Shown here in pieces: positions 20,325 through 27,152 of a DNA stretch of 57,715 bases (the stretch's first letter is position 1; every line of letters begins with the position of its first letter). The notes below the pieces were generated by a model. The model saw only the letters and a program-made list of their open reading frames with translations. It had not been told where the DNA came from and did not search any database. Source of the stretch: Alphaproteobacteria bacterium (GTDB lineage: Bacteria; Pseudomonadota; Alphaproteobacteria; Micropepsales; Micropepsaceae); NCBI GenBank assembly GCA_003139615.1, contig PLJH01000109.1, positions 1 to 57,715 of the forward strand, written 5' to 3'. The position numbers and the translations under genes were made by a program.

Positions 20325-21248
20325 ATGCGGATCGGCATCGACCTCGGCGGCACCAAAATCGAGATCGTGGCGTTGGGCGACAACGGCGCAGTCATACTGC
20401 GCGAGCGCGCACCCACGCCGAAGACGGGCTACGACGATACGATCCGCGCCATGCGCGATCTCGTTGTTGCGGCGCGGACGCGGCTGCCCGGAAACGCGAG
20501 CGTGGGCGTGGCAATCCCGGGAACGATCAGCGCGCGCACCGGCCTCGTGAAGAACGCGAACTCGACCAACCTGATCGGCCATCCGCTCGACAAAGACCTG
20601 GCAGCCGCCATCGGGCAGCCGGTGCGCGTGGCTAACGATGCGAATTGTTTTGCGCTCTCCGAAGCTGCCGATGGTGCTGCCGCGGGCGCCGAGATCGTGT
20701 TCGGCATTATCGCGGGCACGGGCGTAGGCGGCGGCGTGTGTGTCGGCGGTCGTGTGCTGACGGGCGCCCATGCCATTGCGGGCGAATGGGGCCACAATCC
20801 CCTGCCCTCGCCGAGGCCCGACGAACTTCCAGGGCCTGTCTGCTATTGCGGCAAGATCGGCTGCATCGAAAGCTGGTGCTGTGGGCCTGCGCTGATGGCG
20901 CAGTTCGAGCGGCGCACCGGGCGCAAACTCTCGGGTACCGAGATCGCCGAAGCGGCGGCTGCAGGCGACGCGGACGCAGGCGCGACGATGGAACTGTTTT
21001 TCGATCGCTTCGCGCGCGCGATTGCGACACTCGTCAACATTCTAGATCCCGATGCGATCGTGTTCGGTGGCGGACTTTCCAAGATCGAAGCGCTCTACAC
21101 GGAATTGCCGGCGCGCGTGGAGCACTATGCCTTCACGCCCGAAAGCCCCACGCGCATTGTCCGAAACATGCATGGGGACTCGAGCGGCGTACGGGGCGCG
21201 GCGTGGCTGTGGCGCGAAGACGAGACCGCCCTTAGCCTCGGCGGATGA
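20325..21248 (+). CDS. ROK family sugar kinase (fructokinase-like)
   Basis: Cytoplasmic ATP-dependent hexose kinase of the ROK family, 307 residues. It has IGIDLGGTKIEIVAL at the N-terminus, catalytic Asp in ANDANCFALSEA, GTGVGGGV, and the ROK zinc module GAHAIAGEWGHN with CYCGKIGCIESW. The GEWGHN/CxCGxxGCxE zinc site is standard for the fructokinase/glucokinase branch; the actual sugar cannot be read off. The start is the ATG at 20325. It overlaps dinB by four bases (ATGA). Confidence 0.9.
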   Translation: MRIGIDLGGTKIEIVALGDNGAVILRERAPTPKTGYDDTIRAMRDLVVAARTRLPGNASVGVAIPGTISARTGLVKNANSTNLIGHPLDKDLAAAIGQPVRVANDANCFALSEAADGAAAGAEIVFGIIAGTGVGGGVCVGGRVLTGAHAIAGEWGHNPLPSPRPDELPGPVCYCGKIGCIESWCCGPALMAQFERRTGRKLSGTEIAEAAAAGDADAGATMELFFDRFARAIATLVNILDPDAIVFGGGLSKIEALYTELPARVEHYAFTPESPTRIVRNMHGDSSGVRGAAWLWREDETALSLGG

Positions 21249-22516
21249 GCGCCTTCTGCCGTGACTGCCTTGCCGATGTCGCCGCAGGTGCGACACGTTG
21301 CAAGGCTTGCGGAAGCCGCAGGATCGCAGCACACGTCGAACTCGACGCACTGAGCATCGCCCATATCGATTGCGACGCCTTTTATGCCTCCATCGAAAAG
21401 CGCGACAATCCCGATCTGCTCGATAAACCCGTGATCATCGGCGGCGGCACGCGCGGCGTGGTCTCGACGGCCTGCTATGTCGCGCGAACGTTCGGCGTCA
21501 AATCCGCCATGCCGATGTTCCAGGCGCGGAAGCTGTGCCCGGATGCGGTGATCGTCCGACCCAACATGAAAAAATATGCGGAAGCGGCCCGCGCTGTGCG
21601 CGCGCTCATGCGCGAGTTGACGCCGCTTGTCGAACCGCTGTCGCTCGACGAAGCCTATCTCGATCTCTCCGGCACCGAGCGCCTGCACGGCCTCACGCCC
21701 GCGAAGACCATGGCGAAACTTGCCAAGCGGATCGAAAACGACATCGGCATCACGGCCTCGATCGGGCTCAGCCACAACAAATTCCTCGCCAAGCTCGCCT
21801 CCGAACTGGACAAGCCGCGCGGCTTCGCCGTCATCGGCAAGGCGGAAGCGAAGGCGTTTCTGCGCGACAAGCCCGTCGGCTTCATCCGCGGCGCGGGCAA
21901 GGCGCTGCAGGCGCGGCTCGCGAAGGACGGGATCACCCGCATCGGGCAACTACAGGATATGGACATCCGGAAACTTGCCCAGAAATACGGCAACACGGGT
22001 CTTTGGCTTCATCGCCTCGCGCAGGCTGAAGATGCCCGCAACGTCGATCCCTCCGGCGAAATGAAAACGATATCCTCCGAGACGACTTTCGACCGCGACA
22101 TCGCGCGGCTTTCCGATCTCGAGAGCATCCTGTGGAACCAGGCCGAGCGCGTTTCGACCCGCGCCAAGGCCTACGATCTCGGCGGACGCACCATTGTGCT
22201 CAAGCTCAAAACGGCAAATTTCAAAATCCGCACGCGCAGCGTGTCGCTGGAGTCGCCTACGCAACTCGCCGACCGCATTTTCCGCACCGCGCGCGCCTCG
22301 CTCGCGCATGAGGCCGATGGAACGTCCTATCGCTTGCTGGGCGTGGGTCTGAACAATCTGTGCGCGGCATCGGAATGCGATCCCGCCGATCTCGTCGACA
22401 AAGGCGCCGACAAGCGCGCCGCAACCGAACGTGCGATCGACAAGGTGCGCGCCAAATTCGGCGAGGAAGCGGTCAACAAAGGCCGCAGCTTCGAACGACC
22501 TTCGCGGCGGCGCTGA
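21245..22516 (+). CDS. dinB: DNA polymerase IV (DinB) with N-terminal zinc ribbon
   Basis: Y-family translesion polymerase of 423 residues. The palm motif IDCDAFYASIEKRDNPDL near residue 40, YVARTFGVKSAMP, and SLDEAYLDLSGTERL with the catalytic acids are all intact. An IGLSHNKFLAKLAS region and a little-finger domain follow. An N-terminal extension of about 30 residues carries two Cys pairs (CRDC, CKAC), probably a zinc ribbon seen in many alphaproteobacterial DinBs. It lacks an obvious C-terminal clamp peptide match. It is the last gene of the DUF3572-HAD-ROK-dinB run. Confidence 0.95.
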   Translation: MSAFCRDCLADVAAGATRCKACGSRRIAAHVELDALSIAHIDCDAFYASIEKRDNPDLLDKPVIIGGGTRGVVSTACYVARTFGVKSAMPMFQARKLCPDAVIVRPNMKKYAEAARAVRALMRELTPLVEPLSLDEAYLDLSGTERLHGLTPAKTMAKLAKRIENDIGITASIGLSHNKFLAKLASELDKPRGFAVIGKAEAKAFLRDKPVGFIRGAGKALQARLAKDGITRIGQLQDMDIRKLAQKYGNTGLWLHRLAQAEDARNVDPSGEMKTISSETTFDRDIARLSDLESILWNQAERVSTRAKAYDLGGRTIVLKLKTANFKIRTRSVSLESPTQLADRIFRTARASLAHEADGTSYRLLGVGLNNLCAASECDPADLVDKGADKRAATERAIDKVRAKFGEEAVNKGRSFERPSRRR

Positions 22517-22525
22517 TCGCCGCTA

Positions 22526-22554
22526 TTGACGACGCCGCGTATCCTCGCGTAGAG
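22526..22554 (+). promoter_or_regulatory. candidate promoter for the leader ORF
   Basis: TTGACG at 22526-22531 and GTAGAG at 22549-22554 are 17 bases apart, ten bases after the dinB stop. A start seven bases after the -10 would fall at about 22561, directly at the ATG of the leader ORF, giving a near-leaderless mRNA. The -10 is a weak match. Confidence 0.4.
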
Positions 22555-22561
22555 AGCTCCC

Positions 22562-22636
22562 ATGAACCGCGCAACCTTCAGCTTGAGCCGACGCCGCCGC
22601 ATCTTCGATGGGGCGGAAGGATTGCGCGTGCGCTGA
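22562..22636 (+). CDS. Arg-rich leader peptide, putative attenuator
   Basis: A 24-codon frame, MNRATFSLSRRRRIFDGAEG plus LRVR and a TGA, with four consecutive Arg codons (CGA CGC CGC CGC). It sits between dinB and a GNAT gene, with a promoter-like element just ahead and a factor-independent terminator 26 bases behind. Hairpin options are visible: CCGCC/GGCGG around 22594-22616, CGTGC/GCACG at 22626-22646, and the terminator. The CCGCCG of the Arg codons can also pair with CGGCGG in the 3' arm of the terminator, a layout typical of amino-acid attenuators. The function is inferred, not known. Confidence 0.45.
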   Translation: MNRATFSLSRRRRIFDGAEGLRVR

Positions 22637-22662
22637 AGCCAGCACGAAATGCGCAAATGACC

Positions 22663-22693
22663 GGCCCCGTCGAGAAATCGGCGGGGTTTTTGT
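22663..22693 (+). terminator. factor-independent terminator
   Basis: GCCCCG, a 12-base loop region with internal pairing, CGGGGT and then a run of T (TTTTTGTTT). It lies between the leader ORF and the GNAT gene start at 22709, so it must be read through for the GNAT gene to be expressed from upstream. It could alternatively be the terminator of the dinB run. Confidence 0.75.
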
Positions 22694-22708
22694 TTGTGGA
22701 GAATGACG

Positions 22709-23452
22709 ATGGAAAGTTTGGATGCCGTTCGGGAGACCGAGGAACACCTGATGAATGCGTGGCCCAGCCTGCGCACGCTCGCCTGCAACGGCTGGGTGTT
22801 CCGACAGGCCGGCGGCTACACCAAACGCGCCAACTCCGCGAATGCGCTGGACGTCCGCGGGCCTTTCGAGCCCACGCTTGTAAGCGCGCGCAAATTCTAT
22901 GAATCTTTCGAGTGTCCCACGATCTTTCGGCTGACCCCGCTTGCAGGGCCGGAGCCCGATCGCATTCTGGCGAGTCTTGGCTTCGAAGTCGTCGACGAGA
23001 CGCTGGTGATGAAATCGGTGATTTCGGACGGCGCGGAACCGGACGCTGGGTTTTCGATCAGCACGTCCTGCACGCAAGACTGGGAAGCGGGCTACGCGGC
23101 CGCGCATGGGCAGGATTCCGCGCAACGACTGGGGCATCGCGCAATCCTCAAATCCATTGCGCCCTTGCAAACGGCTTTTGCGACGATCCACGACGAAGGC
23201 CGGCCCGTCGCGTTCGGTCTCGGCGTGATCGAGCGCGGCCGTCTCGGATTGTTCGATATCGTCACCTCGCCATCCGTCAGACGCCGCGGATCGGCGCGGC
23301 GTCTGGTGGGAGGATTGCTCCACTGGGGACTCTTGCAAGGAGCAGAAACCGCATGGCTCAGCGTGATCCACGCCAACACAAATGCCATTGCGCTCTATCG
23401 CCGGTTCGGATTCTGCGAGAGCTATCGCTACCACTACCGCGTGGCTCCGTGA
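22709..23452 (+). CDS. GNAT family N-acetyltransferase
   Basis: Acetyl-CoA-dependent N-acyltransferase of 247 residues. The C-terminal GNAT core has LGLFDIVTSPSVRRRGSARR (strand beta-4 and the R/Q-x-x-G-x-G/A loop), LLHWGLLQGAETAWLSV and NAIALYRRFGFCESYRYHYR. The N-terminal half (NGWVFRQAGGYTKRANSANA) is the second, degenerate GNAT-like lobe found in this subfamily. I chose the ATG at 22709, eight bases behind GGAG. The substrate is unknown. Its transcript is preceded by the Arg-rich leader and terminator. Confidence 0.85.
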   Translation: MESLDAVRETEEHLMNAWPSLRTLACNGWVFRQAGGYTKRANSANALDVRGPFEPTLVSARKFYESFECPTIFRLTPLAGPEPDRILASLGFEVVDETLVMKSVISDGAEPDAGFSISTSCTQDWEAGYAAAHGQDSAQRLGHRAILKSIAPLQTAFATIHDEGRPVAFGLGVIERGRLGLFDIVTSPSVRRRGSARRLVGGLLHWGLLQGAETAWLSVIHANTNAIALYRRFGFCESYRYHYRVAP

Positions 23453-23469: not shown

Positions 23470-24417
23470 TCACTGCTCGACATTTCGAGCCCGATCCTCT
23501 TGCTCGTTTGGGGCGCGTGGAATCAGGAAATCCTCCAATCGCGGCGCGACGTGCCAGCCGAGATCGGGGCGGCCGAACCGGCGTTCGACGAACGCGATAT
23601 CGGGTCCATAGATCTCTTGCAACTCGAGAATCTCCTCGTGGTGCACGCGGGGGAACCCGGTTTCACCGAGGCCATTCCTGTGCAGAGTCTCGCGCGTTTC
23701 GGGATCGTCGGCGTCGACCGTCAGCGTGTTGTCCGATATCGCCAGTTTGAGGCCCCCGTGAATCATCCTTTCGGCCCCTTCCACGTCGACCAGCGGAATA
23801 TCCAGAAAGTCGGTCACCCTCTCGAGCGTCGAGACGGGATCGACGAGAACGTCGTCCGTAAACAGCACGAGCATTTTGTCCGTGCCGAAAACCCGCTCCC
23901 ACGGCCAATAATGTCGTTCGTAAAACCCCATTTCGACGACCCCGTAACGAAAGTCGAAATCAAGGAGGCGTTTCTGAAGATCGAGAATGCGATCCCGGGC
24001 CGCGATGCGCCCCTGCTTGAAATGGTGCATGAACGCGGAAACGGCCCGATGCACGGGGTGGCGCAGCAACAAGATCAACCTGACGTCTGCTCCCAGAGCA
24101 TCGCGGACTGCAAGGGCAGTATGCAGTTGCAGTTGCCGCGGCCCCGACCCGAAAAAATTCCTGCTGCGATCGCGCGCCCAGAAATATCCCGGCGTTGCCT
24201 CGCCGACATAGCGCGCGCTTCCGGCTTCGAGAAAATTCTCGGCATAAACCTCCAAGTCGCGACGCGCGTCCTGCTTGCCGAAGAACGACAATTCCTTTGT
24301 CTTGGAAAGAAAGATATCGGGATGACGGCGCAACCGCTCATACAGCCACGTCGTGCCGCACTTTTGTGCTCCGATCACAAGCAGATTCGGCAATCGAAGG
24401 GTATTGCGCGGGCTCAT
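23470..24417 (-). CDS. sulfotransferase
   Basis: PAPS-dependent sulfotransferase of 315 residues. The 5'-phosphosulfate loop is LLVIGAQKCGTTWLYERLRR near residues 12-31, and the 3'-phosphate segment is LILLLRHPVHRAVSAF with the conserved Arg and Ser. A catalytic-type acid/His region and a C-terminal YGPDIAFVERRFGRPD complete the heparan-type bacterial fold. The acceptor is unknown; secreted glycans or lipids are usual in this family. The gene is convergent with the GNAT gene and 22 bases from eipB. It is cytoplasmic, without a signal peptide. Confidence 0.88.
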   Translation of the reverse strand: MSPRNTLRLPNLLVIGAQKCGTTWLYERLRRHPDIFLSKTKELSFFGKQDARRDLEVYAENFLEAGSARYVGEATPGYFWARDRSRNFFGSGPRQLQLHTALAVRDALGADVRLILLLRHPVHRAVSAFMHHFKQGRIAARDRILDLQKRLLDFDFRYGVVEMGFYERHYWPWERVFGTDKMLVLFTDDVLVDPVSTLERVTDFLDIPLVDVEGAERMIHGGLKLAISDNTLTVDADDPETRETLHRNGLGETGFPRVHHEEILELQEIYGPDIAFVERRFGRPDLGWHVAPRLEDFLIPRAPNEQEDRARNVEQ

Positions 24418-24439: not shown

Positions 24440-25231
24440 TCAGCATGTCGCGGGGAGCGGCTCGACCTGCGCCAATGTCGCTTTTAAGGTATAATTCGAA
24501 TAGATCAGCGACATGGAGCCGATGACGCCGTTGGCGTAGAGGCGCGAGGCGATTTGGTAGTCCGGGGTCTCGCTCTGCGCATCTTTCGGAAAGTAGCTCA
24601 CGAGAACCGGCCATACCGGAACGTTCTTCACAAGGCCAGTCTTGTCGACAGGGTGTTCGAATTGAGCATCCGGAACCTTGCGTCCGATCAACACGGTCGA
24701 AAGGTACAATGCAGATTTGTCGCCGCCCTGGAACACGAAGGACTTGCCCGAGGTTTTTCCGGTTGACGCCGCCTGAATGATCTCGATCGCCTGACTTGTC
24801 GGAAACGCCGTGCCTCTGGGCAGCGGAAATTGCATCGTTTGCGGTTCGGCCAGTTCGACCGCGCCGCTGCCATCGGCATCTTCCTTCGCACGTCCGCGCT
24901 GGCGCTCGACGAGTTTGCCGTCCACGGAATTTGTGATGTCGAAGCGCATCTCGTGCCCCGCCTTGCTTTCCCATGCGGTGACGAGGAAATCCTCGCGGGC
25001 GACCTTGCCGTCCGCGTCAGTCATGTCGGCCAGCAGCCGTTGCGTGGTCGTCCAACCGTCGCAGACATCGCGGAATTCGATCACGACGCGGCCATGCGCT
25101 GCGATAACGCCGCCGGCGGTTGTATGCGCGAGCGACAATTCATAGATTGCGCGGTTGGGCACGAGCGCGACGGCCCCCGCAGACGCGCTCCCCGCGACTG
25201 TCAGCAACAGCAGCGCGACCGCGCGCCTCAT
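24440..25231 (-). CDS. eipB: EipB, cell-envelope integrity protein (DUF1849)
   Basis: Periplasmic protein of the DUF1849/EipB family, needed for envelope integrity in Brucella and other alphaproteobacteria; it forms an unclosed beta-spiral. It is 263 residues with a signal peptide (VALLLLTVAGSASAGAVALV). Cys57 (RDVCDGWTT) and the C-terminal Cys263 form the expected conserved disulfide. The family start VPNRAIYELSLAHT and CDGWTTTQRLLADMTDADG are clear. The start is the ATG at 25231, overlapping the aguB stop by four bases. So it is translationally coupled to two polyamine-biosynthesis genes. Confidence 0.9.
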   Translation of the reverse strand: MRRAVALLLLTVAGSASAGAVALVPNRAIYELSLAHTTAGGVIAAHGRVVIEFRDVCDGWTTTQRLLADMTDADGKVAREDFLVTAWESKAGHEMRFDITNSVDGKLVERQRGRAKEDADGSGAVELAEPQTMQFPLPRGTAFPTSQAIEIIQAASTGKTSGKSFVFQGGDKSALYLSTVLIGRKVPDAQFEHPVDKTGLVKNVPVWPVLVSYFPKDAQSETPDYQIASRLYANGVIGSMSLIYSNYTLKATLAQVEPLPATC

Positions 25232-26103
25232 TCCGATGATCCGTCGTGACTGCGCAGCACGCCGTAGAGCTCCGGCCGGCGGTCGCGGAACAGTCCCCAC
25301 GACGCGCGCATCTTCGCAATTTCGTCGAGATCGAATCCGGCCGTCATGAGCCCTTCGTCTTTGCGGCCCATCTCCGCCACGAGTTCACCGGTCGGACCCG
25401 CAATGAAAGACGAGCCGTAAAAAGTGATCTCGCCCGCCTGCCCCTTTTCGGTGCCGATGCGGTTCGACGCGATCAACGGCATATAGTTCGCGCCCGCATG
25501 TCCCTGCATCACGCGCCGCCAATGGTCACGGCTGTCGACCGGCGGCGCGGGCGGCGGCTCCGTCCCGATCGCGGTAGGATAAAATAACGCCTCGGCCCCC
25601 AGCAGCGCCATCGCGCGCGCGGATTCGGGAAACCATTGGTCCCAGCAGATGCCCGCGCCGAATTTGCCGAAGCGAGTGTTCCAGACCTTGAAGCCGATGT
25701 CCCCCGGCGTGAAATAGAATTTCTCCTGATAGCCGGGCCCATCGGGAATATGCGATTTGCGATAAAGCCCGAGCACGCGTCCGTCCGCATCGACCATCGC
25801 CAGAGAATTGAAATGCGCGCGTCCTGCGCGCTCGAAGAAGCTGACCGGCAAGACCACGCCCAGCGATTTCGCGAGATCCGCCATTTCCGCGATCAGCGGA
25901 TTGCCTTCGAAGGGCGCGGCATGTGCGAAATGTTCGGCCAACTGGTCCTGGCAGAAATAGGGCGTCTCGAACAATTCCTGGATGAGGATCGCGTTGGCCC
26001 CCTTCGCCGCTGCCGCGCGCACCATGTCCTTCGCCTTGGCGATATTGGCGCGCTTGTCCCATGAGCAGGCGAATTGCGCGGCCGCGAAAACGATATTTCT
26101 CAT
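25228..26103 (-). CDS. aguB: N-carbamoylputrescine amidase
   Basis: Carbon-nitrogen hydrolase that converts N-carbamoylputrescine to putrescine, CO2 and ammonia. The nitrilase triad is visible: Glu43 in LIQELFETPYFCQ, Lys116 in YRKSHIPDGPGY, and Cys153 in GICWDQWFPE. The 291-residue length fits, and IASNRIGTEKG and FYGSSFIAGPTGE are also family sequences. The gene follows aguA with a four-base overlap and is followed by eipB. Together with aguA it completes the agmatine route to putrescine. Confidence 0.95.
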   Translation of the reverse strand: MRNIVFAAAQFACSWDKRANIAKAKDMVRAAAAKGANAILIQELFETPYFCQDQLAEHFAHAAPFEGNPLIAEMADLAKSLGVVLPVSFFERAGRAHFNSLAMVDADGRVLGLYRKSHIPDGPGYQEKFYFTPGDIGFKVWNTRFGKFGAGICWDQWFPESARAMALLGAEALFYPTAIGTEPPPAPPVDSRDHWRRVMQGHAGANYMPLIASNRIGTEKGQAGEITFYGSSFIAGPTGELVAEMGRKDEGLMTAGFDLDEIAKMRASWGLFRDRRPELYGVLRSHDGSSE

Positions 26104-27152
26104 GATTCAGCCGGCTCCTGCTGGGTGATGCAATGAATCCCGCCGCCGCCCTCCACGATGTCGAGTGCATCGACCTGCAAAATGTCGCGGCCGGGAAAGC
26201 ACGCCGCGATCACGCCGCGGGCGCGTTCGTCATGCGGATCGTCGAAGGACGGCATCACCACACCGCCGTTGGCGAGATAGAAATTGACATAGCTCGATTG
26301 CAGCAGGCGTCCGCGCCAATCAACCCGCGCCTTCTGTGGTTGAACGATCTCGACCACTTCGAGCTTCCGCCCCTGCGCATCGCGTGCATCTGTGAGCCGC
26401 CGAAGAGCTTCGATCGCCGGTTCAAAATCCGGATGCGACCGCGCCGAGGGAATACCTACGATCACGCGACCCGGTGCTGCAAAGCACGCGATGTTGTCGA
26501 CATGCCCGTCGGTCTCCTCGTCGGAGAATCCCTCGCCCAGCCAGATCACCCGGCTCGATCCCGTATAGAGCGCGAGGCGTTCCTCCACCTGCTGGCGATC
26601 GAGATTGGCGTTGCGGTTGGTATTGAGCAGGCATTGTTCGGTGGTGATCAGGGTTCCCTCGCCGTCCGAATGGATCGCACCGCCTTCGCACACGAGCGGC
26701 GCTGGATAGGCGCGCACATCGGCCGCCTTCAGCACGCGCGCCGCAAACGCAGCATCTTCCGTATACGGATGATATTTGTTGCCCCAGGCATTGAACTGCC
26801 ACATGACACCTGCCCGGGCGCCATCTCGTCCAGTGAGAAATGTAGGTCCGATATCGCGCGCCCAGGAATCGTCGAGCGGCGTGTCGAATATCTCGACTTT
26901 GCCGGCCGTCGCCAGCCGCGCTTCCGGCCCGTCGGGCGGACGCACCGCCATCATCACAGGCTCGAACGACGAAATCGCGCGTGCAACCCGCGCATAAGCC
27001 TGTTTAGCGCGCAACAGGCCCTCGGGGCCGCCCCAGATGTCCATGCGGCACGGCCAGCACATCCAGGTGCGCGCATGCGGAGCCCACTCCGCGGGCATCG
27101 CATAACCGTCACGCACGGGACATGGATCGTTGGCGTCGAGCCTTTTGGTCAT
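26100..27152 (-). CDS. aguA: agmatine deiminase
   Basis: Peptidylarginine-deiminase-type enzyme that converts agmatine to N-carbamoylputrescine plus ammonia. The 350 residues include PAEWAPHARTWMCWPCR, the WARDIGPTF acid motif, ETDGHVDN with the His/Asp pair, and the C-terminal GGGGIHCITQQ with the nucleophilic Cys341. It heads the minus-strand aguA-aguB-eipB unit. It is divergent from ridA across 90 bases, which carry no recognisable operator. Confidence 0.95.
   Translation of the reverse strand: MTKRLDANDPCPVRDGYAMPAEWAPHARTWMCWPCRMDIWGGPEGLLRAKQAYARVARAISSFEPVMMAVRPPDGPEARLATAGKVEIFDTPLDDSWARDIGPTFLTGRDGARAGVMWQFNAWGNKYHPYTEDAAFAARVLKAADVRAYPAPLVCEGGAIHSDGEGTLITTEQCLLNTNRNANLDRQQVEERLALYTGSSRVIWLGEGFSDEETDGHVDNIACFAAPGRVIVGIPSARSHPDFEPAIEALRRLTDARDAQGRKLEVVEIVQPQKARVDWRGRLLQSSYVNFYLANGGVVMPSFDDPHDERARGVIAACFPGRDILQVDALDIVEGGGGIHCITQQEPAES

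Follow-up and report, generated by a model that had tools for sequence, protein, structure and literature searches.

The 192 bases between dinB and a GNAT acetyltransferase gene in a genome of the alphaproteobacterial family Micropepsaceae contain a short leader ORF and an intrinsic terminator, which probably act as a ribosome-mediated transcription attenuator that would sense arginine supply and control the acetyltransferase, a probable relative of N-acetylglutamate synthase (NAGS). Comparison with relatives and folding calculations back the leader, its arginine run, its missing Shine-Dalgarno motif, the terminator, the link to GNAT genes, the geometry of the unit and a stepwise change of its pairing partners. 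Judged from sequence comparison, the attenuator nature of the unit is well supported and arginine is the likely signal. An attenuator interpretation had been offered in a first-pass annotation made from the letters of the DNA, and its main points are supported by the recurrence of the unit, the arginine run, a terminator that does not belong to dinB and the resemblance of the GNAT to an arginine-pathway enzyme.

The window, by which we mean the whole stretch of 57,715 nucleotides analysed, carries dinB (DNA polymerase IV; Pfam IMS and IMS_C) at positions 21245–22516 of the forward strand, upstream of the proposed switch and outside it. The putative regulated gene follows on the same strand at 22709–23452, preceded by a GGAG Shine-Dalgarno motif at 22698–22701. 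Behind it comes a sulfotransferase gene (23470–24417, reverse strand), and together the two separate dinB from the EipB-like, CN_hydrolase and PAD_porph genes. From a reading of the sequence, some relatives have apparent EipB-like or CN_hydrolase genes close behind dinB, and the GNAT and sulfotransferase genes may therefore be later insertions. The CN_hydrolase and PAD_porph genes near the switch (25228–27152, reverse strand) are possibly an agmatine-to-putrescine pair, the proximity of which is probably coincidental.

In the proposed mechanism the RNA would begin at the leader ATG and the leaderless peptide would be translated behind RNA polymerase. When Arg-tRNA is ample, the ribosome would reach the stop codon and, in the family, cover the strand that partners the 5' arm of the terminator; the terminator would then form and the GNAT gene would stay off. 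When Arg-tRNA is scarce, the ribosome would pause at the arginine run, the leader strand 22604–22616 would pair with 22661–22674, and the terminator would be blocked, allowing the GNAT gene to be transcribed and its product to supply N-acetylglutamate for arginine synthesis. Promoter use, translation of the leader, arginine as the signal, NAGS activity and the kinetics are the parts of this scheme that we infer.

The leader ORF described in the first-pass annotation, with 24 codons and four tandem arginine codons, was confirmed at 22562–22636 of the forward strand (MNRATFSLSRRRRIFDGAEGLRVR). It runs from an ATG at 22562 to a TGA at 22634–22636, and its candidate sensor codons, CGA CGC CGC CGC, occupy 22589–22600. 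The candidate promoter (22526–22555), read from the sequence as TTGACG (22526) and TAGAGA (22550) with a spacing of 18, would place the RNA start at about 22562, that is, at the leader ATG. This promoter-like pair had been proposed earlier and stands in part: its −10 position matches the box of the relatives, and a strict sigma-70 scan of 22300–22900 returned no promoter. A TA.... hexamer lies 8–18 nt upstream of the leader ATG at 21 of 22 loci including the window, compared with 16% at control positions. Near −35, a [CT]T[TG]G box was found at 18 of the 22 loci, a count without a control comparison, and the window does not match it. None of the 22 leaders is preceded by a Shine-Dalgarno-like motif (control 13%), which is present before 20 of the 22 GNAT genes.

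Relatives of the GNAT led to 29 loci in the bacterial family, 21 of which carry the leader unit, consisting of a −10-like box, an ATG lacking a Shine-Dalgarno motif, a leader peptide with an arginine run and a terminator. A covariance model of these 21 loci (R1), from which the window was left out, matched the window at 22562–22693, from the ATG to the T run, with an E-value of 9.9e-4, the next hit being at 0.51. Against the whole source genome the same unit was again the top hit, at an E-value of only 0.08 and with the next at 0.18, while a profile restricted to the leader ORF, leaving out the terminator, had its top window hit at 22583–22617 (E 0.003). These modest R1 scores suggest that the window belongs to the leader family, and added weight comes from its position before the only strong GNAT match in the genome, the other match having an E-value of 2e-4.

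Searching 96 family genomes with R1 gave 23 strong hits (at least 72 bits) in 22 genomes, all before this GNAT. As 21 of the 23 are members of the model, which had been located by way of the GNAT, the independent content lies in the two others and in the absence of strong hits elsewhere. These two, L133 and L165 (90.6 and 82.9 bits), lie outside the training set and carry NRRR leaders, MMAAIASNRRRALLFKGG and MIANAQTNRRRRLSSRGG; with them, the arrangement of leader and terminator first noted in the window recurs at 23 other GNAT loci. One genome (G071) bears two leader-GNAT units, L165 (C48) and L019 (C31), with nearly identical leaders. This GNAT was near none of the 14 weaker hits (25–36 bits), all of which were inspected; most of the stretches displayed contain an ordinary terminator-like hairpin. 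Across 385 genomes of the class, R1 found nothing outside the family at an E-value of 1e-4, under filters strict enough to pass over the window itself as well. A DNA search of 40 relatives with the window stretch gave, apart from the window, a match of 39–49 bases in two of the 40 genomes. An identity as a known RNA family or tRNA was rejected, none having been matched: the best Rfam matches for 22400–22900 of the window were far under the gathering scores, and 16 loci of the 21 in the family gave no match at the gathering threshold.

The peptide is best conserved in its arginine run. The 21 family leaders are 16–23 amino acids long, mostly 18, and 19 of them have RRR at residues 9–11, the remaining two having RRC and RHR. 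All 21 aligned leaders have CGA as codon 9; this codon is scarce elsewhere, accounting for 27 of 551 arginine codons in the 21 GNAT genes and 13 of 208 in eight genes of the window. The arginine codons, whose absence from relatives would have spoken against the first-pass interpretation, are conserved there, and synonymous variation is seen at the tenth and eleventh codons, where 40 of 42 positions retain arginine and two do not. A translation-coupled attenuator with a different signal, in which a drug, translation stress or the nascent chain arrests the ribosome and the GNAT modifies a drug, a protein or another substrate, would have the same RNA anatomy, which is identical whatever causes the pause. 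All 22 leaders have N, S or A at residue 8 and GG stands at the end of 16 of the 22, which could be a constraint at the peptide level, and the available part of one report (PMC8632094) discusses a leader with a conserved Arg-Leu-Arg, located ahead of hflX, as an antibiotic-type one. However, residues 2–7 vary and arginine is kept at codons 10–11 despite the synonymous change; we consider such a different signal unlikely and arginine sensing the better reading.

The T-tailed terminator between the leader ORF and the GNAT gene, also reported in the first pass, was recovered by a terminator scan at 22663–22691 of the forward strand. Its stem (22663–22688) has 11 pairs capped by a GAAA loop and ends 20 nt upstream of the GNAT ATG at 22709, and the T run occupies 22687–22691. 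Among 60 GNAT loci scanned, with loops of up to 10 allowed since a narrower scan missed five leader loci, the terminator is present at the 21 leader loci and in the window and at none of the 38 others. A single terminator-like site is by itself unremarkable (0.8 expected in shuffles of the 601-bp region), and the 139-nt leader RNA folds better than its own shuffles (z −2.84, equalled by 2 of 200). By eye, a CCGGC-like motif recurs between the terminator and the GNAT start in family loci, where it could pair with a GCCGG in the terminator loop; it is missing after the window terminator.

The frequency of chance terminator-like sites would be in keeping with a passive arrangement, in which the terminator serves the upstream gene (dinB), the ORF is a chance product of GC-rich DNA and the GNAT gene is expressed by readthrough, and short arginine-containing ORFs are indeed also found before GNATs that lack the leader unit. 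A further point in its favour is the end of an amidase gene (Pfam), found no more than 900 nt ahead of the GNAT at 12 family loci out of 21, so that part of the conservation could reflect shared synteny. The unit is, however, also present at the nine loci without the amidase and in the window, and the terminator was rejected as a property of a conserved upstream amidase. It was likewise rejected as a dinB terminator. Relatives of dinB in the genus are 67–77% identical, and an R1 copy is absent from all 32 dinB loci examined, out of 49 genus relatives with a dinB match; the best R1 hit across them had an E-value of 0.9, which is chance level. The 330 nt after dinB in these relatives hold no leader unit (in L098 and L120 the frame runs on and the stretch begins late). 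The absence of a terminator copy at the dinB loci examined contradicts the alternative raised at the outset, that a dinB transcript merely ends at the terminator. The leader loci also agree in their start and phase, in the CGA codon and in the −10 box, which likewise argues against a passive arrangement, and we regard that arrangement as very improbable.

We turned to duplex and folding calculations to examine how an attenuator of this kind could operate. The first-pass annotation had paired the arginine-codon segment CCGCCG with the 3' arm of the terminator. This pairing is not the favoured one; the duplex calculation prefers 22604–22616, which lies within the leader ORF, with 22661–22674, which comprises the terminator 5' arm and the first loop base. 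In the window these predicted antiterminator strands form 13 pairs at −23.3 kcal/mol, and 1.5% of 200 shuffles are as good; for the 21 family members the leader/terminator duplex never exceeds 95% of shuffles (fractions as good 0.06–0.90). For the stepwise calculations the ribosome was assumed to cover the RNA to 15 nt beyond the start of the P site, and the RNA behind it was omitted. When the family RNAs were folded before the 3' arm is made, upstream pairing of the 5' arm averaged 0.91 with the first arginine codon (Arg1) in the A site and 0.22 with the ribosome at the stop codon, and the difference had the same direction in all 21 members and in the window. Dinucleotide shuffles (60 each) gave 0.62 and 0.47, respectively; an equally large difference between Arg1 and stop arose in 8% of shuffles on average and an equally high Arg1 value in 16%, and for L006, L009 and L019 over half of the shuffles equalled the Arg1 pairing.

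When folding is taken to full equilibrium, the family terminators prevail even if a ribosome sits on Arg1 (mean 0.97), their probability dropping by more than 0.1 in one of 21 members at Arg1 and in three of 21 for any arginine codon. Therefore, the family switch must be kinetic, depending on the order of synthesis. The window was predicted to switch at equilibrium, with terminator probabilities of 0.05 at Arg1, 0.01 at Arg2, 0.98 at Arg3 and 1.0 at the stop, a behaviour reproduced by one of 300 shuffles of nt 41–100. Covariance analysis of the hairpins, which the first pass had named as a check, gave partial support: one covarying pair was found in the terminator, and the signal is thin overall, at 1 of 13 pairs (RNAalifold, all 21 loci).

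The window copy departs from its relatives in several respects. Its leader has one extra codon before the arginine run and one base fewer after it, and it lacks a stop at the usual family position, so that the peptide reads on; L014 is another member with a displaced stop. The antiterminator was compared base by base between the window and the ten members that have UCCGANGGGG or a similar strand, leaving out the other eleven, which pair in other registers. A C-G pair of the ten members is U-A in the window, an A.C mismatch present in nine of them is A-U, and a U-A pair of nine is U-G; the central pairs are kept. As they come from a single lineage, these changes represent one event or a few. 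Because the stop is late, a ribosome at that position may have released 22604–22616, which would make the off state leakier, and in this model the window attenuator may be a leaky copy.

A stronger version of this idea is that the family unit is real and the window copy a decayed relic, constitutively on and no longer regulating, which has lost its stop and acquired a foreign GNAT. It would agree with the continuation of the ORF beyond its usual end, with the tendency of the naked window RNA to favour antitermination (terminator probability 0.18) and with the position of the window GNAT outside the leader clade described below. In contrast, both antiterminator partners have changed in step, the terminator stem retains its 11 pairs and the displaced stop is shared with L014. 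We consider decay improbable, somewhat more so than a signal other than arginine, and favour a working attenuator in the window.

The identity of the regulated gene bears on the nature of the signal. The top NCBIfam match of the window GNAT is the N-acetylglutamate synthase CG3035 family (NF049894.1, 4e-32, 111.6 bits), which is also the top match of both leader-clade proteins scanned; the curated cut-off of 280 bits is unmet by the window protein and by these two (95.5 and 102.8 bits). The window protein further matches Pfam Rv0428c_C over its length (PF24553, 8.8e-24), and its relatives in the family are about 28–37% identical to it. Weak matches to aminoglycoside, nourseothricin/streptothricin and RimI acetyltransferases would suit a GNAT that modifies drugs or proteins in response to some other signal; against this stands the top named match of all three scanned GNATs, an arginine-pathway enzyme. 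Classical ArgA was found above the cut-off in none of the 96 family genomes, a cut-off that is strict, as just one of 14 control genomes passed it. On the opposite side, ArgJ, which can be bifunctional, was above its cut-off in 86 of the 96, the source genome included.

One family genome (G053) has a GNAT of this type, lacking the leader, directly after argJ: 32 nt separate the two matches, and the GNAT frame opens with a TTG 2 nt past the argJ stop. This locus (L022, G053:C51) is a possible argJ-NAGS operon lacking a leader. Neither argJ nor argB was found in the flanks of about 1.5 kb around the other GNAT loci. Together, the GNAT matches, the argJ neighbour and the absence of a classical ArgA above the cut-off fit an arginine role without proving one, and the GNAT is a probable N-acetylglutamate synthase, which would catalyse the first step of arginine synthesis. 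Cg3035, the C-NAGS of Corynebacterium glutamicum, is a GNAT distantly related to that of the window and carries out this first step; it rescues an Escherichia coli argA deletion (PMC3827942). Cg3035 differs in that both ArgR repression and feedback inhibition are reported to be absent, and the available part of that report mentions no attenuator (PMC3827942).

A tree of 61 GNATs unites the 22 leader-bearing proteins of the family in a single clade (100/98). Outside this clade, the window GNAT groups with L035, L036, L037 and a Reyranella protein (L063), its nearest relatives (L035, 51%), and neither the terminator nor such a leader was found at these four loci. Read most simply, this topology suggests that the window lineage acquired a foreign GNAT behind a leader that it already had; movement of the leader to a new GNAT is a possible alternative history. 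A fuller account, which we advance tentatively and with less confidence than the attenuator itself, would be that a dedicated arginine attenuator governs entry into arginine synthesis through a NAGS-like GNAT, and that after the arrival of the foreign GNAT behind the resident leader, the leader and terminator changed together and so preserved the switch.

Amino-acid attenuators are textbook regulators, and the proposed unit would use the tandem-codon logic of the trp attenuator family. The mechanism would thus be a known one, the new elements being the amino acid and the regulated gene. We know of no sequence relation between the window leader and uORFC-8-2, a short ORF before cysS in Rhodobacterales. 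In the available portions of the respective reports, one parallel in architecture is with trpL/rnTrpL of Sinorhizobium meliloti, which shares a leaderless short ORF at the RNA start and an attenuator before the biosynthetic gene trpE but uses Trp codons, whereas here Arg codons precede a NAGS-like GNAT (PMC10117765, PMC7298713). uORFC-8-2 shares a conserved short ORF, tandem codons for a single amino acid and a terminator-like 3' end, and ribosome-mediated attenuation has been proposed for it; it differs in having Cys codons and regulating a tRNA synthetase (PMC8632094, as far as the accessible text goes). The orf34 leader of speF in Salmonella likewise senses arginine, through ribosome pausing at two consecutive Arg codons, but according to the accessible part of its description it serves polyamine synthesis, encodes another peptide and involves Rho, RNase G and the speF ribosome-binding site, in contrast to the intrinsic terminator here (PMC6386406). 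A search of the open-access literature found no Arg-codon attenuator before an arginine-synthesis gene.

If this interpretation is true, arginine would join the amino acids sensed by attenuators, and the unit would offer a regulatory clue that a poorly characterised GNAT family makes N-acetylglutamate outside the Corynebacterineae. In the window lineage, the leader would have retained its logic even though it is followed by a gene from a different branch.
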